From assembly GCF_002277955.1 (NCBI RefSeq), contig NZ_CP018477.1, positions 2,253,206 through 2,317,205 of the forward strand: a stretch of DNA of 64,000 nt, written 5' to 3'. The stretch is from Thermogutta terrifontis. GTDB taxonomy: Bacteria > Planctomycetota > Planctomycetia > Pirellulales > Thermoguttaceae. Of this stretch, positions 1,525-13,565 are shown in pieces. Made by a program: the position numbers and the translations under genes. Below the pieces are notes generated by a model. It was not told the origin of the DNA, did no database searches, and saw only the letters and a list, made by a program, of their open reading frames with translations. Within the stretch, counting starts at the first letter, position 1. Each line of letters starts with the position of its first letter.

Positions 1525-3711
1525 TCAAGGTTGATTGGGCCGCGCGTGAGCCGCAATCTCTTCTGGCGAAAGGCATCGCGAGTAGATGCGGACCTCGTCA
1601 ATCGCTCCGGTAAAGTGCGCAGAATGGCCTTTTTCATAGTTGCCCAGTACCAAATAACGGCTGTTGAAAGTGATGGGGGCCCGCCGTTCGAGTTCACCGA
1701 TTTCCCGGCCCTGCATGTAGAGTCTCATCGTACTGCCGTCGAACGTGGCCGCCAGATGGACCCATGGCCCAACAGGGAGCGGTGATTGCCCGACCAGATG
1801 GTGACTCCAGGGCGTGACGGGAATTTGAAAACACGGCTTGCCCTCGAGCACACCAACTCGAAATCCGGTTGTTTCAACCCCACCGAAAACACAGTTGACG
1901 ATCCACCGATTGTTCTGGTTGGGAGTTTCAGTGCGAACCCAGCACTCCACGGTGAGCTGCGAGCAATTTGTCAGCGGCCTGTCCATGGGCACGATGACAC
2001 ATCCCCCGTGGCAATCGAGGGCCCAACCCTGCCGTCCTTTAACGCGGGCAACGTTGTGAAGCACTCCCCCGAGGCGATGCCCGGAATAATCGAAGGCCAC
2101 CTCTTGCTCCGGAGGCTCGTCAAAAGTCCACCAGGCGACAAGGGCGGGATCGGTTCCCGGAAGGGTGACTCGGCGTCGAGCCTGCGCAATGAGTGCGCGC
2201 TCCCTTTCAAAGTACTGTCGGACAGGCGCGTCGTACGGACCGAGGCCGACGTCCTCTGGAAGCAAGTCAATATGCTGAAAAGACTCGGTGGAAAAGACGC
2301 GACGGACCGCATCCAGATATTCAAAGCCGAACTCACGGTGAGGCGCAATGTAATGCCCTTCCCCCCATTCATTCCAGTTGTCAAGAAGAATCAACCGGCT
2401 TCCCAATTGCTCCCTGGGAAAAGTTGCTGCCAGTGCCTTAGCACGCCGGAGGAGTTCCTCGAAATCCTTTGGTGGCAGCTTCCAAATAGACCCCTCGTCT
2501 TGCCATCCACTCCAGCCTTGTGACACGGTGATGACCTGGGGAATGATTCCCAGCTCCTGTGTGCGCGTGATGTACGACAACTGTGCCTCGATCGCTTGCC
2601 GCGGCGTGGGATTATTAGGAACTGGCCAGACGTATGCAAAAGTATAGTCCAGCCCAAGGTCTTTCATGAGTTGAAGATGGCGGGCGTCGGTACCTCGATA
2701 TTCGCCGAGAAGGTACAGTCCCGCGAAACCTGCCTGCCGGCATAATTGGCGTGCTTTTTCGAAGGCACTCGCAACTTTATCCACACCGCCCAGGTCGTCC
2801 ACCAGAAACTCGGGACGATAAATAAAAAGAAGAGGCTTGCCATCAATTACCAGATAGTTGGGCCGTTGGAAGTAGTTTTTGATCCAAAAAGGCAGGAGGT
2901 TGTCCAAAAAGTCACGCTCATCGGCGACACCGGCCTGACCACGGGCCTGATTTTCCCACATGATGGCAAAACGCAACCTGTCCTGAAATCGGGAATGAAA
3001 AAAGGCCTCGTGAAGAGCACTGGAGTACCGCATCTCAACTGGACCGCCCTGTCGCGCCCGGTACCAGCAATAAACGAAAAATGAAATCCCGTGCTCAACG
3101 GCCCATTTTGTCTCCCAATCGGCTACTTCAGGGTTTTCCTGACCGTAGAACCCTAGTGCCGGCGTCCTTTCGGGATGCTTGAGCAGGTTGCGCCAGATTT
3201 CAGGCCTGTCTGTCTCCCAAAGCGGGCAATTGTGGGCGCCGACAAGAATATCGGTGGCCACCGGCTGAGGTGGTGGAATCTCCCGGTTTTTAGGGATCGA
3301 AAGAGCCGGGAGAAACAGCACGGAAAGAGACCGGCGCACCGCGGCCTGCTGGTATTTGGCAAGGACCGCCAAATCGTGGCGTCCTGCTTCCGATGTCACC
3401 ACCGTCCATGACGTATTGATTTCGTCAACCCCGTTTTCGAAGCGAAATGACTGTTGCACATTTCCTTGGACAAGACGCACCTCGGGCGGAAGAATTAGTT
3501 CCAGTGTGCCCTCGAGGTCCTGGCCTCCACGATTACGAAGGGTGACGGAGAGGGTGCAAGGCCATCCTGCACGATAAATTGGCCGGACGGGCTGGAAGTC
3601 GGCGATTTCCAATTCTCCCGGCCGGACTTGCCCACTGAGAAGCACCGTCAGAAGCATAAATGCGCAGAAAAACCCCGTTTTGAGCAATCGGCCTGAAAAT
3701 CGCGCCGTCAT
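1525..3711 (-). CDS. Exported GH99/WbsX-like protein with C-terminal LamG-like domain
   Basis: The protein has 728 residues. Residues 1-30 form a signal peptide. Residues 35-130 look like an immunoglobulin-type or CARDB-like beta domain. Residues 150-475 match the WbsX/GH99-like (beta/alpha)8 domain, with the diagnostic LLDNWNEWGEGHYIAP near 442-457. Residues 525-725 resemble a laminin-G/concanavalin-like carbohydrate-binding domain. GH99 relatives cleave internal alpha-mannosidic bonds, while WbsX proteins are linked to surface polysaccharide; which applies is not decidable here. The start is supported by AAGGAG 6 bases upstream. It follows the ROK gene by about 78 bases and probably shares its transcript. 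Confidence 0.75.
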   Translation of the reverse strand: MTARFSGRLLKTGFFCAFMLLTVLLSGQVRPGELEIADFQPVRPIYRAGWPCTLSVTLRNRGGQDLEGTLELILPPEVRLVQGNVQQSFRFENGVDEINTSWTVVTSEAGRHDLAVLAKYQQAAVRRSLSVLFLPALSIPKNREIPPPQPVATDILVGAHNCPLWETDRPEIWRNLLKHPERTPALGFYGQENPEVADWETKWAVEHGISFFVYCWYRARQGGPVEMRYSSALHEAFFHSRFQDRLRFAIMWENQARGQAGVADERDFLDNLLPFWIKNYFQRPNYLVIDGKPLLFIYRPEFLVDDLGGVDKVASAFEKARQLCRQAGFAGLYLLGEYRGTDARHLQLMKDLGLDYTFAYVWPVPNNPTPRQAIEAQLSYITRTQELGIIPQVITVSQGWSGWQDEGSIWKLPPKDFEELLRRAKALAATFPREQLGSRLILLDNWNEWGEGHYIAPHREFGFEYLDAVRRVFSTESFQHIDLLPEDVGLGPYDAPVRQYFERERALIAQARRRVTLPGTDPALVAWWTFDEPPEQEVAFDYSGHRLGGVLHNVARVKGRQGWALDCHGGCVIVPMDRPLTNCSQLTVECWVRTETPNQNNRWIVNCVFGGVETTGFRVGVLEGKPCFQIPVTPWSHHLVGQSPLPVGPWVHLAATFDGSTMRLYMQGREIGELERRAPITFNSRYLVLGNYEKGHSAHFTGAIDEVRIYSRCLSPEEIAAHARPNQP

Positions 3712-3789
3712 GGTGACTCCTTCTATGAACAGTGTCTGGTGGCAGGGCGTGGATGGAGCAATTTCGCCGTTTGATCGACGATATTCGGT

Positions 3790-5157
3790 TTATCGAGAGA
3801 CGCAAAAATAGGCCGACCTCCGCGTGTTGGATCGCTCATATGCGATCGCGGCCTGCGGTGTGGGTAGAGCCAACAAGCTGATCCGTCTTCGAGCGAAGAA
3901 CTCATAGATTTTACTGATGTCCGTATTTTTCACATCGAAGCCTAACCCAAGGATGACGGTCTCAACACCGCCCCGTGTTAGCATCTCTAGAAGCTCTTCG
4001 GAGAGCCATGCGTCACTCTCATTCACGAGTTTCGAACTTGCCTTTTTAACACGTCCATGGCTCAGAATGACAACATCTTCCTCGTACTGTTTACCAGCAA
4101 TTGTGATACTACCAGGGTGGCACTCTTCCACGCAGGGATACTTGATGTTGCGCAGAGATTTAAAGACGTTGATCCCCACTTTTCTGGCGGCGATCGCCAC
4201 TGCTCCTAGAACAACCGCATCGTCCCCGAGAGCCGACAGGCAGAGGCCACCACGCTCCCGGGCGCCGGGGAGTTGATCGGAGTTCACGACGGCCTGAATT
4301 GTCGGCCACAGAGTGTCCCCACATGCCTCCATGACCCCGCCTCCCAGCACGATCCACTCCGGATCCAAGAGGTGCCGTACGGTGAGGCATGCATAACCGA
4401 TGATCTCCGCGGCCCGCCGCATAATCCGCTCGACAAGGGGATCACCCTTTTCCAGAGCTTGCTTGAGGGCTTTACTCCGAATAACGCTGAGATCTCCGTC
4501 GAGGATTTCGGTCAGTAATGTGGACTCGCCTTTCGCCACCGCATCTCGAATGTCGCGTTCAATGGCCGCCCGACCAGCGAGGGCTTCAAAACATCCGCGA
4601 TTCCCACATCCGCACAGCGGGCCCCCAATCTCCATGACGATATGACCGATTTCACCCGCCACTTCCCGGGCACCTCGCCAGATCTTCTTTTTCTGTGCAA
4701 ATCCCGCCCCGATTCCCGTGCCGACAAAGATCCCCATGGCGCTTTTGGCCCCGCGGGCAGAGCCCAGCCAAACTTCACCCAGCGTACCGAGATTGCAGTC
4801 ATTCCCCAGGATAACTCGGCAGCCAAAACGGGATTCCAAGCGAGGGACGAGATGGACGCCGGAAAGGCAACTGTTGGGAGTACGTACAATCGTCCCCTTT
4901 TTGGGATCCACCACTCCCGGTATGGCGACACCAATGGCCGTCACGTCGCGGTGGCTCAGATCCTCTTCTTTGAGCACCGCTTCGATGACGCCTTCGATTG
5001 CCTCAACAATCTCTGCGGGGTTGTCCGTCCGCGGTGTGGGAAGCCGCTCCCGGGCGCGAATGACCCCGCGCCGATCGGCCAGCACGCCAAGAATTTTAGT
5101 GCCTCCCACATCGACAGCAACGAAATTCGGTTCGTTGGATTGTTGTTTGCCAGCCAT
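3790..5157 (-). CDS. ROK-family sugar kinase fused to an Mth938-like C-terminal domain
   Basis: Residues about 10-330 form a standard ROK (glucokinase/NagC-type) protein. Visible motifs are the phosphate-binding AVDVGGTK at the N-terminus, GND with the likely catalytic Asp near residue 120, GTGIGAGF, and the zinc motif CGCGNRGC near 182-189. ROK kinases phosphorylate hexoses such as glucose or N-acetyl sugars. There is no N-terminal DNA-binding domain, so this is a kinase and not a repressor. Residues about 348-455 are extra: ITIAGKQYEEDVVI, ETVILGLGF and LPTPQAAIAYE resemble the Mth938/DUF498 fold. ATG at 5157 is preferred over an upstream GTG at 5178 because GAGGG precedes it. Its upstream neighbour ends about 26 bases away. 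Confidence 0.85.
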   Translation of the reverse strand: MAGKQQSNEPNFVAVDVGGTKILGVLADRRGVIRARERLPTPRTDNPAEIVEAIEGVIEAVLKEEDLSHRDVTAIGVAIPGVVDPKKGTIVRTPNSCLSGVHLVPRLESRFGCRVILGNDCNLGTLGEVWLGSARGAKSAMGIFVGTGIGAGFAQKKKIWRGAREVAGEIGHIVMEIGGPLCGCGNRGCFEALAGRAAIERDIRDAVAKGESTLLTEILDGDLSVIRSKALKQALEKGDPLVERIMRRAAEIIGYACLTVRHLLDPEWIVLGGGVMEACGDTLWPTIQAVVNSDQLPGARERGGLCLSALGDDAVVLGAVAIAARKVGINVFKSLRNIKYPCVEECHPGSITIAGKQYEEDVVILSHGRVKKASSKLVNESDAWLSEELLEMLTRGGVETVILGLGFDVKNTDISKIYEFFARRRISLLALPTPQAAIAYERSNTRRSAYFCVSR

Positions 5158-5182
5158 AGGTGATCCCTCTGTGCTCACCGTA

Positions 5183-7168
5183 CTAATGCTCCTGCTCTAA
5201 TATTGTGGGGTGGAAAAGCCGCTCCTGCAAAGGAACGGCCGGTTTTCCCAGAACGGCCGCTCGCATCCACTCCGCCCACCACTGAGTAGCTCTGGCAGCA
5301 TGGGACATTGGTGGGTTAACGTTCAAGGATTCTGTCGCCACACGCACAGAGTGCAGCAATTCCTCATCGTTTCTCACCAGCGTGCATGGTGCCCGCAATT
5401 CAACAGTCAGAGGAGGCAGCTTTCCCAACGATCGGGCGAAAAAATCTTTCACGTTCGCCGGTCGTGATTGTCTCAATTCGCAACCGATAAAAAAAACGCT
5501 TTGTTGGCTCACATCAGTCTGCCAAAGATTATCGACCACCAGCCGCGGACCATCGACCATCAATCGGCCCTGGACGAGAAGCCAGGGATAGAGAGTGACT
5601 GCGTCAGCGATGTGGTCATTGGTGGCAATTCGCAGAGCGGAAGCAATGTCCCAGGAACGCGTGAAAACGCATTCGTCGTTGTGATTCGTCGGGACAACAG
5701 GTGGTACAGCGGCGAGAAGGACTGCTCCGTGGGGCACTTCGGCGCGCTGTGTTTCCCTCCTGATTGTGTTCAAAATGATTTCCTGGGCCTGCCATGACTG
5801 AACGTAATTGTTGCGCTGCAACAAAAAGGAGGTGGCATTGACGAGTAAGGCCACACACAGACCAACTTGCAGCCAGCGCGTTCTTTTAAAAGATTGTTGA
5901 TGAGCCGGGCCAGTCCAATAGGTGCTCGCCGCGAGAGCAACGGCTACCCACAGGGAGGAAAGTTTTCGGTTGTCGTTGCCATAAACCGCAGCATAACTGC
6001 CAGAGAGCACAAATAGCAGAACGCTCATTGCCGCGGAGATCCAGCACACCCTCCTGAGCACGCCGACTCGACAAGATTGGGTAGCGAAGTGGTTGCGGTG
6101 AGAACGGTCCTCGCCATTTGATCGTGTTTCGAGATGAACACTGCCATCTGGCTTGTCGCCCGATTGACGCGCTGTGTTTTGCGCGTTTAGAGGTTCCCCA
6201 GCACCCGTGGTTCGCGAGTGAGCTAGGACAAGGGAAATCGTCACGAGCAGAGCACCCGCCAAAGCTGATGCATCCCACGCTTCATGGATTCGGAAAAGAC
6301 CATCGGCCCAGAGAATAGGCGTCTGAACGGACACTGCAAATACCCAATAAAGAAACGTCCGGAGCATCATTCCAAGGCCGCCCGGCGTCAGCCGAGACAT
6401 GTCCGGAAAAAAACTTGGCATGATCAATTTCTGCACGACCAGCCCCAGTAAAACGGCAACAGCGAGGGGAACTGTCGTCCTGGCAACGCTTTTCCATGTG
6501 TGCCGATCAAATCCCAGGTAGGTGGGTGACGCTGAGCCCAGAGTGGCTAGCTTTCCAGATTGATCCGCCTTAAAGCAGGCAGCATGGTAGAGCGGCATCA
6601 AACACTGCAAAACGAGCAGGGGTAGAAAAATCTCGTAGATCAGCATCCCGATGAAAATAAGAAGACCGGACAACAACAGCCAGCCGCCCTGCCGGCTCAT
6701 CGCCCTTTCGTGACATACGAGTGACCCTGCCCATAAAACGTACGCCGTCGCCGCGAGATGTTGCATTCCTGGCGAAAACACAAGTGTGGAAGCAATACTT
6801 GGCAAATATACGGCCGACAGGAAAAAAGCCGCGGCCTTTTCGCCGCACAATCGACGCCAGACGTACCAGACCATTCCCCATGCCACGCTGAGCGACAAAA
6901 ACTGAGAGCAGACGTACCAGCGAGGAGTGCCGCCATACACGCCGGATATACTGGAAAGCACAACGGGAGCTAATGGGCGGGCAGAGAAAAGTGGAAACCA
7001 TGACCGCACGGCATCCCACCACTGACGGTGCACACGCCAATGGTCGATGATCATCCAATCGTCGCAAACCCAACCTGCTTTAAAAAGATACGGAATATAT
7101 ACTGCAAGTATGAAAACAATAGCAGCACAGGTGGGCAGCCTTTTTTTGCAGAAGTGTGCAAATGCCAT
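5183..7168 (-). CDS. Polytopic membrane protein, GT-C glycosyltransferase-like
   Basis: The N-terminal two thirds alternate hydrophobic segments (about ten) with short loops; the C-terminal about 200 residues are soluble. The first exported loop has CDDWMIID followed by RPLAPVVLS. Acidic pairs in this loop are typical of GT-C glycosyltransferases of the PMT/ArnT type, which use lipid-linked sugars at the outer face of the membrane. No family was recognised beyond this resemblance. The start is uncertain: ATG at 7168 or TTG at 7189, neither with a good Shine-Dalgarno. It lies 72-95 bases after the GH127 gene and directly before the ROK gene. Confidence 0.65.
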   Translation of the reverse strand: MAFAHFCKKRLPTCAAIVFILAVYIPYLFKAGWVCDDWMIIDHWRVHRQWWDAVRSWFPLFSARPLAPVVLSSISGVYGGTPRWYVCSQFLSLSVAWGMVWYVWRRLCGEKAAAFFLSAVYLPSIASTLVFSPGMQHLAATAYVLWAGSLVCHERAMSRQGGWLLLSGLLIFIGMLIYEIFLPLLVLQCLMPLYHAACFKADQSGKLATLGSASPTYLGFDRHTWKSVARTTVPLAVAVLLGLVVQKLIMPSFFPDMSRLTPGGLGMMLRTFLYWVFAVSVQTPILWADGLFRIHEAWDASALAGALLVTISLVLAHSRTTGAGEPLNAQNTARQSGDKPDGSVHLETRSNGEDRSHRNHFATQSCRVGVLRRVCWISAAMSVLLFVLSGSYAAVYGNDNRKLSSLWVAVALAASTYWTGPAHQQSFKRTRWLQVGLCVALLVNATSFLLQRNNYVQSWQAQEIILNTIRRETQRAEVPHGAVLLAAVPPVVPTNHNDECVFTRSWDIASALRIATNDHIADAVTLYPWLLVQGRLMVDGPRLVVDNLWQTDVSQQSVFFIGCELRQSRPANVKDFFARSLGKLPPLTVELRAPCTLVRNDEELLHSVRVATESLNVNPPMSHAARATQWWAEWMRAAVLGKPAVPLQERLFHPTILEQEH

Positions 7169-7261: not shown

Positions 7262-9727
7262 TTATCGCTCGGATTCGTGACCAGTGGACTCTCCGTTTGG
7301 GTCGGCTGATGTGGTCACAACCCGCAAGTCAAATATACCACCTGCCATGGCCCCCGGATGGGCCTGAAAACGCACGGTGACCGCTTCGCGATCTTTTACG
7401 AGTTCGGCCGGCAGCGGGTAAACCTCAATAAAAAAGCGTCCGGGCCGATTGTTCGCCAATCGCTGTGTAGCGAGCCTCGATCCATCGACCACAATATCAA
7501 AAACCCGATTCCCAACGTCGCTGCCCCAGTATTCCACAAGGAGGGACTGCCCCTTGCCCTTGCCTACTTTCACTGTGTAGGCGAACCATCCACCGTTGAC
7601 GGCATGCCGCCACCGCCGCCCGGCAAACGTCCCGCTCTCGGTCCTTTCACCAGCAAGGGAATGTTCTTTTTCGCTAAGGGGGTCCCCAACAATAACTCGG
7701 TCGACTGTTCGCTTTTCAATTTCCTCCCATTTTTTCTTTGCTTGATTATATTCGCTAATGATTTTCTCCCATTGTGATGGAGATACTCGATCGAAATAGA
7801 CCACATAACGCCGGGGACCATGGATCTTGTAGAACGGTTCAAGTATGATCTCTCGGTCCGCGCTATCCACAAGCGATCGGAATAATCCCCTGGGCGCCGT
7901 CCAGCATCCGGGACGCCCCTCCGCCACTTTGAACGTCGTCAAATCGACATGATCCGCCACGGCCGCCAGCAGCCCTCCAAAACTGCGGCCGATGTCCCTG
8001 GCCGGGAAATAGGCAACGGCAGGCGATTGGAGCACGCTGTCCGGTACAACAGCCGCAAGCACGATGGGACCATGGAGAATGGCAAACCGGTCAGGATTAT
8101 CGGGGAATGATTCTGTCCGCAACTGCATGGGCACCCGGATTTCGACGTGGTCACCGGCAGTCCACGTACGGGTGACGCGAACGAACTGGCCCGGACGATC
8201 TTCCAACGCCCATGGAGTCCCATTGACCAGAATCGAGTATCCCTGAGTACACCACGCTGGCCAGCGGATCGCAATGGTTAATTGCGCGGGCGACTGCGGT
8301 TCAACGTAGAGATGCACCGTGTCTGAATCGGGAAATTGCGTTTCCAGTCGGACTCGTACACCTTTTTGTTGCCATTGGAGTTCTGACGGAATAAACAGAT
8401 TCACATACAAAGTGTCGCGGCCATCGTGAAAGTAGATGCTTTCTCCATATTTCGCATGGTTTTCGATGCCTGTTCCCGTGCAGCACCAGAAAGAGTCCAG
8501 GGGTGTGGAATAAGTTTTATGTGATCCCGATTGTAAAGGAACATAGTAGCACATCATTCCAGTTTCTGGATCTTGCGACGCAAGGATGTGGTTGTAGAGG
8601 GCACGCTCGTAGTAGTCGGCATATTCGGGTACCATTTCCCAGAACAGCAGGTGCCTGGTGAGCTTGAGCATGTTGTATGTGTTGCAGGTTTCCGCAGTGT
8701 TGGGGCCGAGGGCTTCCGAGAGCCTATCTTTGGGCGTGAAATGCTCGTTGTTGCTGTTTCCACCAATCACATAGGAACGTTCGTGGACAACACACTTCCA
8801 GAAGTTCAACGCGGCATCGCGATACCACGGCGTTCCCGTTAATTCGTACAGTCTGGCCGCACCGATAAACTTAGGAATCTGCGTATTGGCGTGCAAACCG
8901 GTGAGAATGTCCTTCCCTTCGGCTAAAGGCTTGAGCACCGCCAGATGGTTGAAGCGCTCGGCAATCCGCAGGTATTTTTCTTCCCCGGTTAAGGCGTACA
9001 GATTGGCCAGGGCCTCGTTCATGCCGCCGTGTTCCACGTTCAACATGCGTTGCATCTGCTCGTCGGTCAGGCGGCTGTTCCGCGCGATCACCCAATCCCC
9101 GAGCTTCTTGGCCACTTCTAGTGCCTGCTGATCGCCGCAGTACACGTAGGCGTCGAGCAGCCCTGCCAGAATTTTGTGGAGCGTGTAGTAGGGAGCCCAA
9201 ACCCGTCCAGTAGTTTCAACCCGGTCAAAAAACTCTTCTGGAAACGCGCTAAGATAGCCGTTACCGAGTTTCTCCTGGCACTTCGCCAGTTCCTGGACCA
9301 AAAAGTGGACTCGGTCCCGGAACTGGGCATCGCGAGTACTCGCGTACATGAACGAGCAGGCTGACAGATAATGGCCCACAAAGTGTCCCCGTAATTCGCA
9401 ATCAGGTCGTTCCCAGCCGCCGAGCGGTCTCGCATCACTGGGAAGTCCCGCATTGACCCGAAACACGTGCAAAAGGCGGTTCAGATCGAGCGACACCAGG
9501 TATTCCGCGTCCTTCCGCATTGCATGGAGAAAAGGGCTGGGCAACAGACGCACGTCTTCCAGGCGGAAGGGATAGGTCGATAAGGGGATCTTCGACTTAC
9601 ACTCAGATGCTCGCAGATGTTCGACAGGAGGCAAAACCCCAAAAGTACCCACAACTAACACGGCAAATAAGAAACGTGAAAGTAGCTCCATGGGCCAGTT
9701 CCTCGAAGAATTCGTATGGTTTGGCAT
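7262..9727 (-). CDS. Exported GH127-family beta-L-arabinofuranosidase-like enzyme
   Basis: The 821-residue protein has a signal peptide (hydrophobic core about residues 17-32) and a GH127 (formerly DUF1680) alpha/alpha barrel. It retains the zinc-thiolate active site of the family: AETCNTYN with Glu346 and Cys348, and FWCCTGTGIENHAKYGESIYF-type motif with Cys415 and Cys416, matching the Glu/three-Cys set described for the Bifidobacterium enzyme. A jelly-roll domain follows from about residue 690 (YTVKVGKGKGQSLLVEYWG). The family removes terminal beta-L-arabinofuranose from plant glycans. Both ATG 9727 (AGAGGTGG upstream) and ATG 9691 (GAGGAA upstream) are plausible starts. It heads the minus-strand carbohydrate block. 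Confidence 0.88.
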   Translation of the reverse strand: MPNHTNSSRNWPMELLSRFLFAVLVVGTFGVLPPVEHLRASECKSKIPLSTYPFRLEDVRLLPSPFLHAMRKDAEYLVSLDLNRLLHVFRVNAGLPSDARPLGGWERPDCELRGHFVGHYLSACSFMYASTRDAQFRDRVHFLVQELAKCQEKLGNGYLSAFPEEFFDRVETTGRVWAPYYTLHKILAGLLDAYVYCGDQQALEVAKKLGDWVIARNSRLTDEQMQRMLNVEHGGMNEALANLYALTGEEKYLRIAERFNHLAVLKPLAEGKDILTGLHANTQIPKFIGAARLYELTGTPWYRDAALNFWKCVVHERSYVIGGNSNNEHFTPKDRLSEALGPNTAETCNTYNMLKLTRHLLFWEMVPEYADYYERALYNHILASQDPETGMMCYYVPLQSGSHKTYSTPLDSFWCCTGTGIENHAKYGESIYFHDGRDTLYVNLFIPSELQWQQKGVRVRLETQFPDSDTVHLYVEPQSPAQLTIAIRWPAWCTQGYSILVNGTPWALEDRPGQFVRVTRTWTAGDHVEIRVPMQLRTESFPDNPDRFAILHGPIVLAAVVPDSVLQSPAVAYFPARDIGRSFGGLLAAVADHVDLTTFKVAEGRPGCWTAPRGLFRSLVDSADREIILEPFYKIHGPRRYVVYFDRVSPSQWEKIISEYNQAKKKWEEIEKRTVDRVIVGDPLSEKEHSLAGERTESGTFAGRRWRHAVNGGWFAYTVKVGKGKGQSLLVEYWGSDVGNRVFDIVVDGSRLATQRLANNRPGRFFIEVYPLPAELVKDREAVTVRFQAHPGAMAGGIFDLRVVTTSADPNGESTGHESER

Positions 9728-11797: not shown

Positions 11798-12077
11798 TGC
11801 TCTTCAGTTTTCGGCTAGATCAATTCTTTTGACCCCCAAAGCCTAAAACTCATCGTGGCCGAATTTGGATAGGGAAATGGCTGCGCGGCAGACACTCGGC
11901 CGGGTTGGTCCTTGCGCAGGCCGTGCATCGCGAACAATCCGACTCCTCGTTGTTTCACTACCATCCCCACGGGCAAGAAAAAGCTAGTGTTTCTCGGGAG
12001 ATGTCGTGTGATGAGGCCAGAGCCACTTCAATGGCAGGAGGAGGTTTCTCCCCAACCACAATACGAGGGAACTGACG

Positions 12078-13565
12078 ATGTTGGAATTGGTCGATCCCTG
12101 TCAGAAGGTGAAAAAGCAAGAATACAAGAACGTCTTTCCAACCCTCGAGCAAAAGCTGGCGGCATGTCAGCGGGCGGCCAGGGCGGCTGGCATACCCGTG
12201 ATCATCGTGTTTGAAGGGTGGCATGCTGCCGGCAAGGGGATGGTTATCAATAGTCTGGCCCAGGTGCTGGATCCTCGCGGATTTCGTGTCCATCTGACTC
12301 TCCCGCGTAACGAAGAAGAGAAACGGCACCCATGGATGTGGCGATTCTGGAATAGGATTCCCGGGGCGGGCGAGATTGCTATTTTCGACCATTCCTGGTA
12401 TCAGCGCGTGCTCGACGATTTTGCGGAGGGGCGGATTTCTAAAAAAGAGTTCCGTCAGGCGATTGCCGATATTTTGGAATTCGAAAGGCAACTCGCGGAT
12501 GCGGGAACATTAATCGTCAAGTTCTGGCTCCACATTGACCCGCGGGTGCAGAAAAAACGCTTGAAAGCCCTCGCTTCCTCTCCAGCCACCCGTTGGAAAG
12601 TCTCCCCAGAACAGTGGAAACAGAACAAGAAGTACAAGAAATGGTTCAACCTGGCGAACCAGGTGCTCGAAGCCACCAGTACATTCCAGAACCCTTGGCA
12701 GATCGTGGAAGCTCATCAGGCCCGTTTTACTCGCCTGAAGGTGTTCCGCACGCTCATTTCGAAGATCGAGCAGGAGGCTCAGCGACGTTCGAAACAGCTC
12801 GCGGAGCCTCCGTCTCCCATGCCAGAACCGCGAGAAGACGAGCTTCTCCGTCCCACGATTCTCGATCGAGTGGACCTTACTCAGTCACTGGAGCGCGGGC
12901 AATATGAGAAGGAATTGAGAGGGCTCCAAAAGGCCCTTTACGAGCTTGAGCATCGCTGCCATTTGGCACAGGTGCCGGTGGTCATTGTTTTTGAAGGGTG
13001 GGATGCGGCGGGAAAAGGCGGAGTGATCAAGCGACTGACGCGGGGCCTTGATCCGCGAGGTTATGAAGTGGTACCCATTGGGCCACCGACCGCCGAAGAA
13101 AAGGCTCATCACTATCTGTGGCGGTTCTGGCGACGGCTGCCGAAAACGGGCCATATCACGATTTTTGATCGCTCGTGGTACGGGCGGGTGCTGGTGGAGC
13201 GGGTAGAAGGTTTCTGTCGGGAGGAGGAATGGCAGCGGGCATTTCGGGAAATCAACGAATTCGAAAAACAGCTTGCCGACTTCGGAACCGTGGTCATCAA
13301 GTTCTGGCTGCACATCGACCCTGATGAACAACTTCGCCGATTCCAGGCCCGTCAAAGCGATCCTAACAAGCAGTGGAAAATCACTGAGGAAGACTGGCGG
13401 AATCGCAGTAAGTGGCGACAGTACGAGGTGGCCGTAACTCAAATGCTGGAACGCACCAGCACCACGTATGCTCCCTGGACGGTGGTGGAAGCAAATTGCA
13501 AGCTTTTTGCCAGAATTAAGGCGCTCAGGACTGTCAAGGAGCGTCTTGAAGCTGCCGTCTCCTGA
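12078..13565 (+). CDS. Two-domain PPK2-type polyphosphate kinase (polyphosphate:AMP phosphotransferase)
   Basis: The 495-residue protein holds two PPK2 domains in tandem, at about 10-235 and 270-495. The C-terminal copy has the intact Walker A GWDAAGKG (307-314) and FDRSWYGRVLVERVEG lid motif. The N-terminal copy has GWHAAGKG (47-54) and FDHSWYQRVL (103-112), so it lost the conserved Asp and Arg. Tandem PPK2 enzymes (class II, as in Pseudomonas PAP) phosphorylate AMP to ADP from polyphosphate in the cytoplasm, with catalysis in the C-terminal half. GAGGGA precedes the ATG. It is convergent with nupC, 20 bases away. Confidence 0.9.
   Translation: MLELVDPCQKVKKQEYKNVFPTLEQKLAACQRAARAAGIPVIIVFEGWHAAGKGMVINSLAQVLDPRGFRVHLTLPRNEEEKRHPWMWRFWNRIPGAGEIAIFDHSWYQRVLDDFAEGRISKKEFRQAIADILEFERQLADAGTLIVKFWLHIDPRVQKKRLKALASSPATRWKVSPEQWKQNKKYKKWFNLANQVLEATSTFQNPWQIVEAHQARFTRLKVFRTLISKIEQEAQRRSKQLAEPPSPMPEPREDELLRPTILDRVDLTQSLERGQYEKELRGLQKALYELEHRCHLAQVPVVIVFEGWDAAGKGGVIKRLTRGLDPRGYEVVPIGPPTAEEKAHHYLWRFWRRLPKTGHITIFDRSWYGRVLVERVEGFCREEEWQRAFREINEFEKQLADFGTVVIKFWLHIDPDEQLRRFQARQSDPNKQWKITEEDWRNRSKWRQYEVAVTQMLERTSTTYAPWTVVEANCKLFARIKALRTVKERLEAAVS

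Follow-up and report, generated by a model that had tools for sequence, protein, structure and literature searches.

Within a window of 64,000 nucleotides of the Thermogutta terrifontis genome (the whole stretch of DNA that was analysed), one gene encodes a protein of 455 amino acids that contains, in a single chain, a ROK sugar kinase and a C-terminal domain of the Mth938/DUF498 family (Table 1). This pairing is real, old and common to two bacterial phyla, Planctomycetota and Armatimonadota. We rate the combination of ROK and Mth938 as a new domain architecture; no description of it was found in the literature searched, which covered few subscription journals, and domain-architecture databases may record the fusion. 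We propose that the protein is a putative hexose kinase, probably ATP-dependent, carrying a docking or regulatory Mth938 tail tied to polyphosphate metabolism, and we give this reading a probability of about one half. The gene is probably THTE_2175 of T. terrifontis R1, considering the four putative ROK glucokinases named in the excerpted text of the R1 publication (THTE_0095, THTE_2175, THTE_3207 and THTE_4164, with no up-regulation on xanthan gum; PMC5673643) together with the four places that carry ROK matches in the window's genome (at about 0.09, 2.26, 3.38 and 4.47 Mb).

Table 1. Features of the window, with positions counted from its first nucleotide
Feature	Coordinates	Strand	Remarks
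ROK-Mth938 fusion gene	3790..5157	(-)	ORF from ATG, 455 aa + stop
ROK kinase domain	4183..5121	(-)	residues 13-325; PF00480
Mth938/DUF498 domain	3823..4131	(-)	residues 343-445; PF04430, profile, fold
N119-D120	4798..4803	(-)	invariant in 48 aligned ROK relatives
E169-x-G-H172	4642..4653	(-)	invariant in aligned ROK relatives
CGCGNRGCFE	4585..4614	(-)	residues 182-191; ROK motif CXCGXXGCXE
Segment 368-384	4006..4056	(-)	weakly basic in window, strongly basic in Armatimonadota relatives
C-terminus FCVSR	3793..3807	(-)	replaces HxTC of 32/33 stand-alone Mth938 rows
PPK2 gene	12015..13562	(+)	516 aa, two PPK2 stretches; PF03976, 498.4 bits

The open reading frame has no internal stop, and an alternative GTG start (3790..5178 (-)) is open as well. 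Pfam places the ROK domain at residues 13-325 (213.7 bits, E 5.5e-63, for a gathering cut-off of 22.9 bits) and then DUF498 at residues 343-445. A sequence-only reading had described a ROK protein running past the usual 300-330 residues, with a tail at 345-455; the excess length is real and the limits were correct to within a few residues. The ROK match begins at residue 13 with no Pfam N-terminal DNA-binding domain before it, which is the layout of a ROK sugar kinase rather than of a repressor. All the residues that mark ROK membership are kept (C182, C184, C189, E191, E169 and H172); D120 of the N-D pair is presumably the catalytic base, and we take E169-x-G-H172 to be the sugar-binding ExGH motif of ROK kinases. 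The nearest solved sequence is the glucokinase 2qm1 (E 5.2e-39) and, in the whole-chain fold searches, the ROK part matched solved ROK proteins with best Z scores of 36-37. The ROK glucokinases and hexokinases 2qm1 (Enterococcus faecalis), 3vgk (Streptomyces griseus) and 3vov (Thermus thermophilus) resemble the kinase part in fold and length and share its N-D, ExGH and cysteine motifs; their chains, however, are of about 300-325 residues without any extra domain, whereas the window's protein adds the Mth938 tail. The score against TIGR00744, the ROK_glcA glucokinase subfamily, is 183 bits, below the curated cut-off of 260.35. Concerning the phosphate donor, the excerpted text of PMC6406325 describes the CXCGXXGCXE motif of ROK proteins and polyphosphate glucokinases of methanotrophs that are without it; these enzymes, like 1woq, share the ROK-type fold with the window's kinase, which does carry the motif. 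The motif is kept here, and the model of polyphosphate-glucose phosphotransferases (NF045942) scores only 34.7 bits, far below its cut-off of 250, which makes ATP the more likely donor. Judged on its sequence, the fusion protein is a putative glucokinase-like hexose kinase of the ROK family, most likely ATP-dependent.

The assignment of the tail was approached by profile, by single sequence and by fold. PF04430 scores 34.4 bits on the whole protein and 38.1 bits on the tail alone, just above the cut-off of 33. Used as a single-sequence query, the tail matched MTH938 (1ihn) at E 0.0011, and a profile built on 17 fused tails, all taken from other genomes (alignment A2, the window's tail being left out) reached the archaeal 2cyj at E 9.9e-20, 1ihn at 3.1e-19 and human AAMDC (2ab1) at 5.4e-11. 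Among the matches listed (50 for each search), whole-chain fold searches covered the ROK part alone, and the tail was therefore folded and searched separately. Modelled alone, it has a mean pLDDT of 90.9, and Foldseek against the PDB gave 2cyj (E 1.1e-6), 1ihn (E 2.3e-5) and 2ab1 (E 2.9e-5). The nine matches at E<=1e-3 are these three (2ab1 with two chains), 2fi9, 3cpk, 2gm2, 2fvt and 2k2e, while the tenth lies at E 0.58. The PDB title of 2k2e reads Mth938-like, and we take 2fi9, 3cpk, 2gm2 and 2fvt to be DUF498 members; 2fi9, 2gm2, 3cpk and 2k2e are also weak matches to the fused-tail profile (E 0.0025-0.071). The predicted structure thus shows the tail to have the Mth938 fold, and profile and fold together support its homology to the stand-alone Mth938 proteins 1ihn (MTH938), 2cyj (PH1505) and 2ab1 (human AAMDC), from which it differs in being joined to a kinase and in being without the GTSH and HxTC motifs. 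The Mth938/DUF498 assignment made from the letters alone, to be checked by HMM search and structure prediction, is thereby borne out, Pfam, profile and fold being in agreement. A short match of the tail profile to the glucokinase regulatory protein 3w0l (33 residues, E 0.002) was taken as chance. For the whole fusion chain, modelled with 48 aligned sequences, a mean pLDDT of 93.0 and a pTM of 0.93 suggest that the tail sits at a defined place on the kinase part.

The tail could also be imagined as an ordinary ROK C-terminus with a chance likeness to Mth938, or the fusion as an artefact of gene calling, a suspicion to which the Pfam score barely above the cut-off lends some colour. Of the ROK relatives matched only up to a point short of the tail (45 of the 56 matches of L091-L146 were read), 43 of 45 run into a stop codon no more than 35 residues past the match end; the exceptions are L094, open for 131 residues, and L114, with no stop in the stretch read. 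Alignment A4 left out 10 of these 45 read relatives, in which a stop falls inside the matched stretch. These stop positions and the fold of the tail rule out an ordinary ROK C-terminus, in agreement with the sequence-only reading. The wider suspicion of a spurious fusion is already refuted by the profile, fold, selection and tree results, and by the 62 genomes of the window's bacterial family that were matched through both parts.

Regarding its distribution, a ROK orthologue (E<=1e-60) is found in 72 of the 119 genomes of this family and the tail is present in 64 of these 72. The match spans the ROK part through the tail in 62 genomes, with a stop codon flagged inside that of G476, and the tails of G395 and G400 are visible despite a cut at the contig end; G506 and G522 were counted neither as tailed nor as tail-less. 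The six tail-less orthologues (G466, G467, G468, G393, G402 and G526) stop soon past the ROK domain, and one of them, G393, belongs to the window's own genus. When DUF498 was used as query, 57 of the 119 family genomes gave matches; in the window's genome (one contig, 4.81 Mb) the fusion tail is the sole DUF498 match at E<=0.001. In a phylum-wide sample, DUF498 was matched in 32 of 392 genomes, 28 of the 34 places listed lying in frames of less than 300 aa and weak matches falling within long frames of G264 and G003. The full-length profile (E<=1e-85) detected six of these 392 genomes: G000, G353, G075 and G031 are fused (G031 split across two contigs), the gene of G160 is truncated at a contig end and the frame of G048 has ROK length. 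A scan of named genomes, which was pattern-limited, gave among the matches listed fused proteins in Thermoguttaceae and other Pirellulales/Planctomycetaceae MAGs, in the Phycisphaerae MAGs L085 and L086, in MAG L084 and in a Candidatus Zipacnadia MAG (L087), whose phylum according to NCBI is Armatimonadota. In this second phylum, 23 of 201 genomes have a ROK match at E<=1e-85, of which 16 are fused and five tail-less (G552 and G578 stand outside both counts; the matches read exclude L186 as well as L199, which is the same gene as L087), and Pfam confirmed DUF498 in six of the 16 fusions. The count across planctomycetes proposed along with the first assignment gives 64 of 72 family orthologues, and the architecture extends to 16 of 201 Armatimonadota genomes.

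The history of the fusion was traced with trees of both parts. In the maximum-likelihood tree of the ROK part (78 rows, of which 12 are outgroup ROKs; L002 and L003_paralog were left out), 59 fused and six tail-less rows group with G160 in a single clade (support 100/99). Four changes of the tail label are needed on this tree; with the outgroup, they read as a single gain followed by three losses, including that of G393 from the window's own genus. Because the outgroup was drawn from the pattern-limited scan, there may be unfused ROKs that are closer. In the tail tree, a single branch parts the fused (46 rows) from the stand-alone sequences (33 rows) with support 98/90, and after addition of Armatimonadota it parts 60 fused from 33 stand-alone rows (support 93/79, present in 89% of 200 bootstrap trees). 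The tail trees left out L010 (cut by a contig end) as well as L056 and L059 (second views of included fused genes), and L215 is in neither the ROK tree nor the tail trees. The two stand-alone genes that branch closest to the fused tails, L015 and a second Mth938 copy of L074, come from the window's bacterial family; neither is joined to a kinase, and both keep the canonical motifs. The L074 copy (6375-6929 (+)) follows, at a distance of about 1.4 kb, a fusion gene whose tail is without HxTC. Within the fused set neither the planctomycete tails nor the Armatimonadota tails form one clade, so that ancient descent and inter-phylum transfer both fit. The trees support a single fusion event that preceded the divergence of, or the exchange between, the members of Planctomycetota and Armatimonadota, followed by at least three losses of the tail.

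The C-terminal HxTC motif (counted as HxxC) is found in 32 of 33 stand-alone rows, in 14 of 15 Armatimonadota fused tails and in 24 of 45 planctomycete fused tails; it is typical of Mth938 without defining it, and the window's tail has lost it together with GTSH. Despite these losses, purifying selection is evident in the tail: a comparison of the window with G392, its nearest relative, gives dN/dS values of 0.037 for the ROK part and 0.082 for the tail, and the tail value is <=0.41 in all 15 pairs where it could be computed. Selection thus acts on the tail even where the motifs are gone. At the amino acid level the tail is less conserved than the ROK part in 17 of 17 pairs compared, pairs which reuse rows and are not independent. 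Long inserts were noticed in some fusions: L035 (1453-3153 (-)) has a long lysine-rich insert within its Mth938 tail, and L033 (1471-3012 (-)) and L034 (283-1818 (+)) have inserts of several dozen residues, partly lysine-rich, just before the ROK cysteine motif.

Two readings of the tail meet these data directly. In the first, the tail would be a second enzyme and the protein bifunctional. Fusions often unite enzymes of one pathway, and the motif is nearly constant in the stand-alone proteins and the Armatimonadota fusions; on the other side, 21 of the 45 planctomycete fused tails have lost the motif while the window's tail stays under purifying selection, and we know of no catalytic activity in the Mth938/DUF498 family. 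We hold a bifunctional enzyme to be quite improbable. In the second, the tail would do no more than extend the structure, or would be a relic decaying in the window's genus, and its role would end at stability. The three independent losses, the lower identity of the tail in all pairs and the missing motifs of the window are what one would expect of it, whereas the low dN/dS of the tail (0.08 in the window's genus) and its long retention in two phyla speak for constraint, and we consider this reading rather unlikely.

The gene neighbourhood provides the lead towards polyphosphate. The next gene on the same strand encodes a CHAD protein in 12 of the 16 Armatimonadota fusions (by Pfam in L201, L206, L207, L208, L209, L210, L211, L212, L214, L215 and L087, with a partial match in L205), and the next gene is no CHAD gene in the other four (L202, L203, L204 and L213). 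CHAD is close to single-copy: the 30 genomes searched have one match in 24 cases, two matches in two and none in four. CHAD was found in 14 of the 16 Armatimonadota fusion genomes and adjoins the fusion in 12 of these 14; none is adjacent to the five tail-less Armatimonadota ROK genes, among which L217 offers only 160 bases downstream. The excerpted text of PMC6537752 describes CHAD as a polyphosphate-binding domain whose stand-alone genes often lie in operons with polyphosphate enzymes. For 33 planctomycete fused loci the upstream sequence extends to 1 kb or more; polyphosphate kinase 2 (PPK2) is the next upstream gene in five of them (L070, L069, L148, L149 and L153) and is not in the other 28, window included. 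Four of the PPK2-adjacent loci sit in one five-row subclade of the ROK tree (support 100/99), whose fifth row, G396, is outside the PPK2 count, L148 being from the genus of G398. The five loci seem to reflect a single event, and adjacencies shared by related genomes do not count as independent of one another. The window's genome has one CHAD match, elsewhere in the genome, and the window's PPK2 gene lies 6.9 kb from the fusion on the opposite strand and serves as context only; the fusion adjoins neither directly. The two-domain layout of the window's PPK2 gene is one known from class II PPK2 (polyphosphate:AMP phosphotransferase).

Other neighbours were recorded. The fusion region of the window is flanked by a GH127 beta-L-arabinofuranosidase-like gene (7262-9727 (-), PF07944 E 1.2e-137) and by a gene for a WbsX + Laminin_G_3 protein (1525-3711 (-)). 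In six planctomycete loci (L070, L073, L078, L147, L148 and L149) the kinase gene is preceded by a sigma-70-type gene; this set was obtained by ORF clustering and Pfam-tested in L070 only (3238-4971 (+)), and its member L078 is tail-less. Two tandem thymidylate-kinase-like genes (PF02223) are upstream of the Armatimonadota fusions of L209 (366-1927 (+)) and L207 (7177-8970 (-)), and similar genes cluster in L087, L202, L203, L205, L214 and L215 and in the tail-less L216 and L220. A single conserved operon around the gene in all planctomycetes was rejected, ORF clustering having given local groups only. PPK2-like frames suggested by clustering in L073 and L078 were likewise discarded, as phmmer with a PPK2 sequence matched, in the set of loci clustered there, L069, L070 and the window only.

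The charge of the tail bears on how polyphosphate might be involved. A 20-residue segment of it has a mean net charge of +7.3 in the Armatimonadota fusions (n=15), against -0.3 for their whole tails; the same segment carries +4.1 in planctomycete fused tails (n=44), +0.9 in stand-alone proteins (n=29) and +2 in the window. The kinase itself might then take its phosphate from polyphosphate, the basic segment of the tail holding the chain. The CHAD and PPK2 neighbours and the strongly charged Armatimonadota segment would suit such a donor, and the ROK family does include polyphosphate glucokinases, one of which (1woq) is among the matches. Against it stand the cysteine motif kept by the window's kinase, the NF045942 score and the charge of just +2 in the window, and we judge it quite improbable that polyphosphate is the direct donor.

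We favour instead the docking or regulatory tail. The sequence-only reading had suggested that the fusion could connect sugar phosphorylation or regulation with an unknown Mth938 activity; what the present data add to this suggestion is the polyphosphate context of the genes. In this proposal, the Mth938 domain, probably non-catalytic and joined to the kinase C-terminus, would link the kinase to partners of polyphosphate metabolism, which may be the CHAD protein in Armatimonadota and PPK2 in one planctomycete clade. Polyphosphate and sugar phosphorylation could thereby be coupled, for instance by way of ATP that PPK2 supplies or by a location at polyphosphate granules. The polyphosphate link is drawn from gene order alone, in relatives rather than in the window's own neighbourhood, and is our best lead; the four Armatimonadota fusions without a CHAD neighbour and the TIGR00744 score below its cut-off count against the proposal. 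As the tail in the window's genus has lost the basic segment, GTSH and HxTC and the gene has neither partner adjacent, the tail may there be mainly a structural or allosteric part of the kinase, and its loss in six of 72 family orthologues, one of them in that genus, indicates that it is dispensable. A stronger statement, that Mth938 is a polyphosphate-related module which recruits the kinase to polyphosphate or its enzymes and thereby lets polyphosphate pay for the phosphorylation of sugar, appears to us distinctly unlikely. As a comparison, the excerpted text of PMC12419801 (eLife) reports Lipocone membrane proteins in which a DUF498-like domain, likewise joined to another domain, is read by its authors as ligand-binding and regulatory. 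This agrees in spirit with a regulatory tail, although in the text excerpted that domain is an extracellular ligand-binding part of membrane proteins and no sugar kinase is involved.

Finally, the Thermogutta protein published as a putative ROK glucokinase (probably THTE_2175) contains an additional domain which goes unmentioned in the excerpted text of PMC5673643. The fusion also matters beyond this organism. Mth938/DUF498 is an old family that extends from archaea to humans, for which we know of no established molecular function. Its fusion to an enzyme of known chemistry, in two phyla and beside polyphosphate genes, makes the function of DUF498 testable. If the module were indeed polyphosphate-related, this would be the first molecular role for the Mth938/DUF498 fold, including its archaeal members and human AAMDC.
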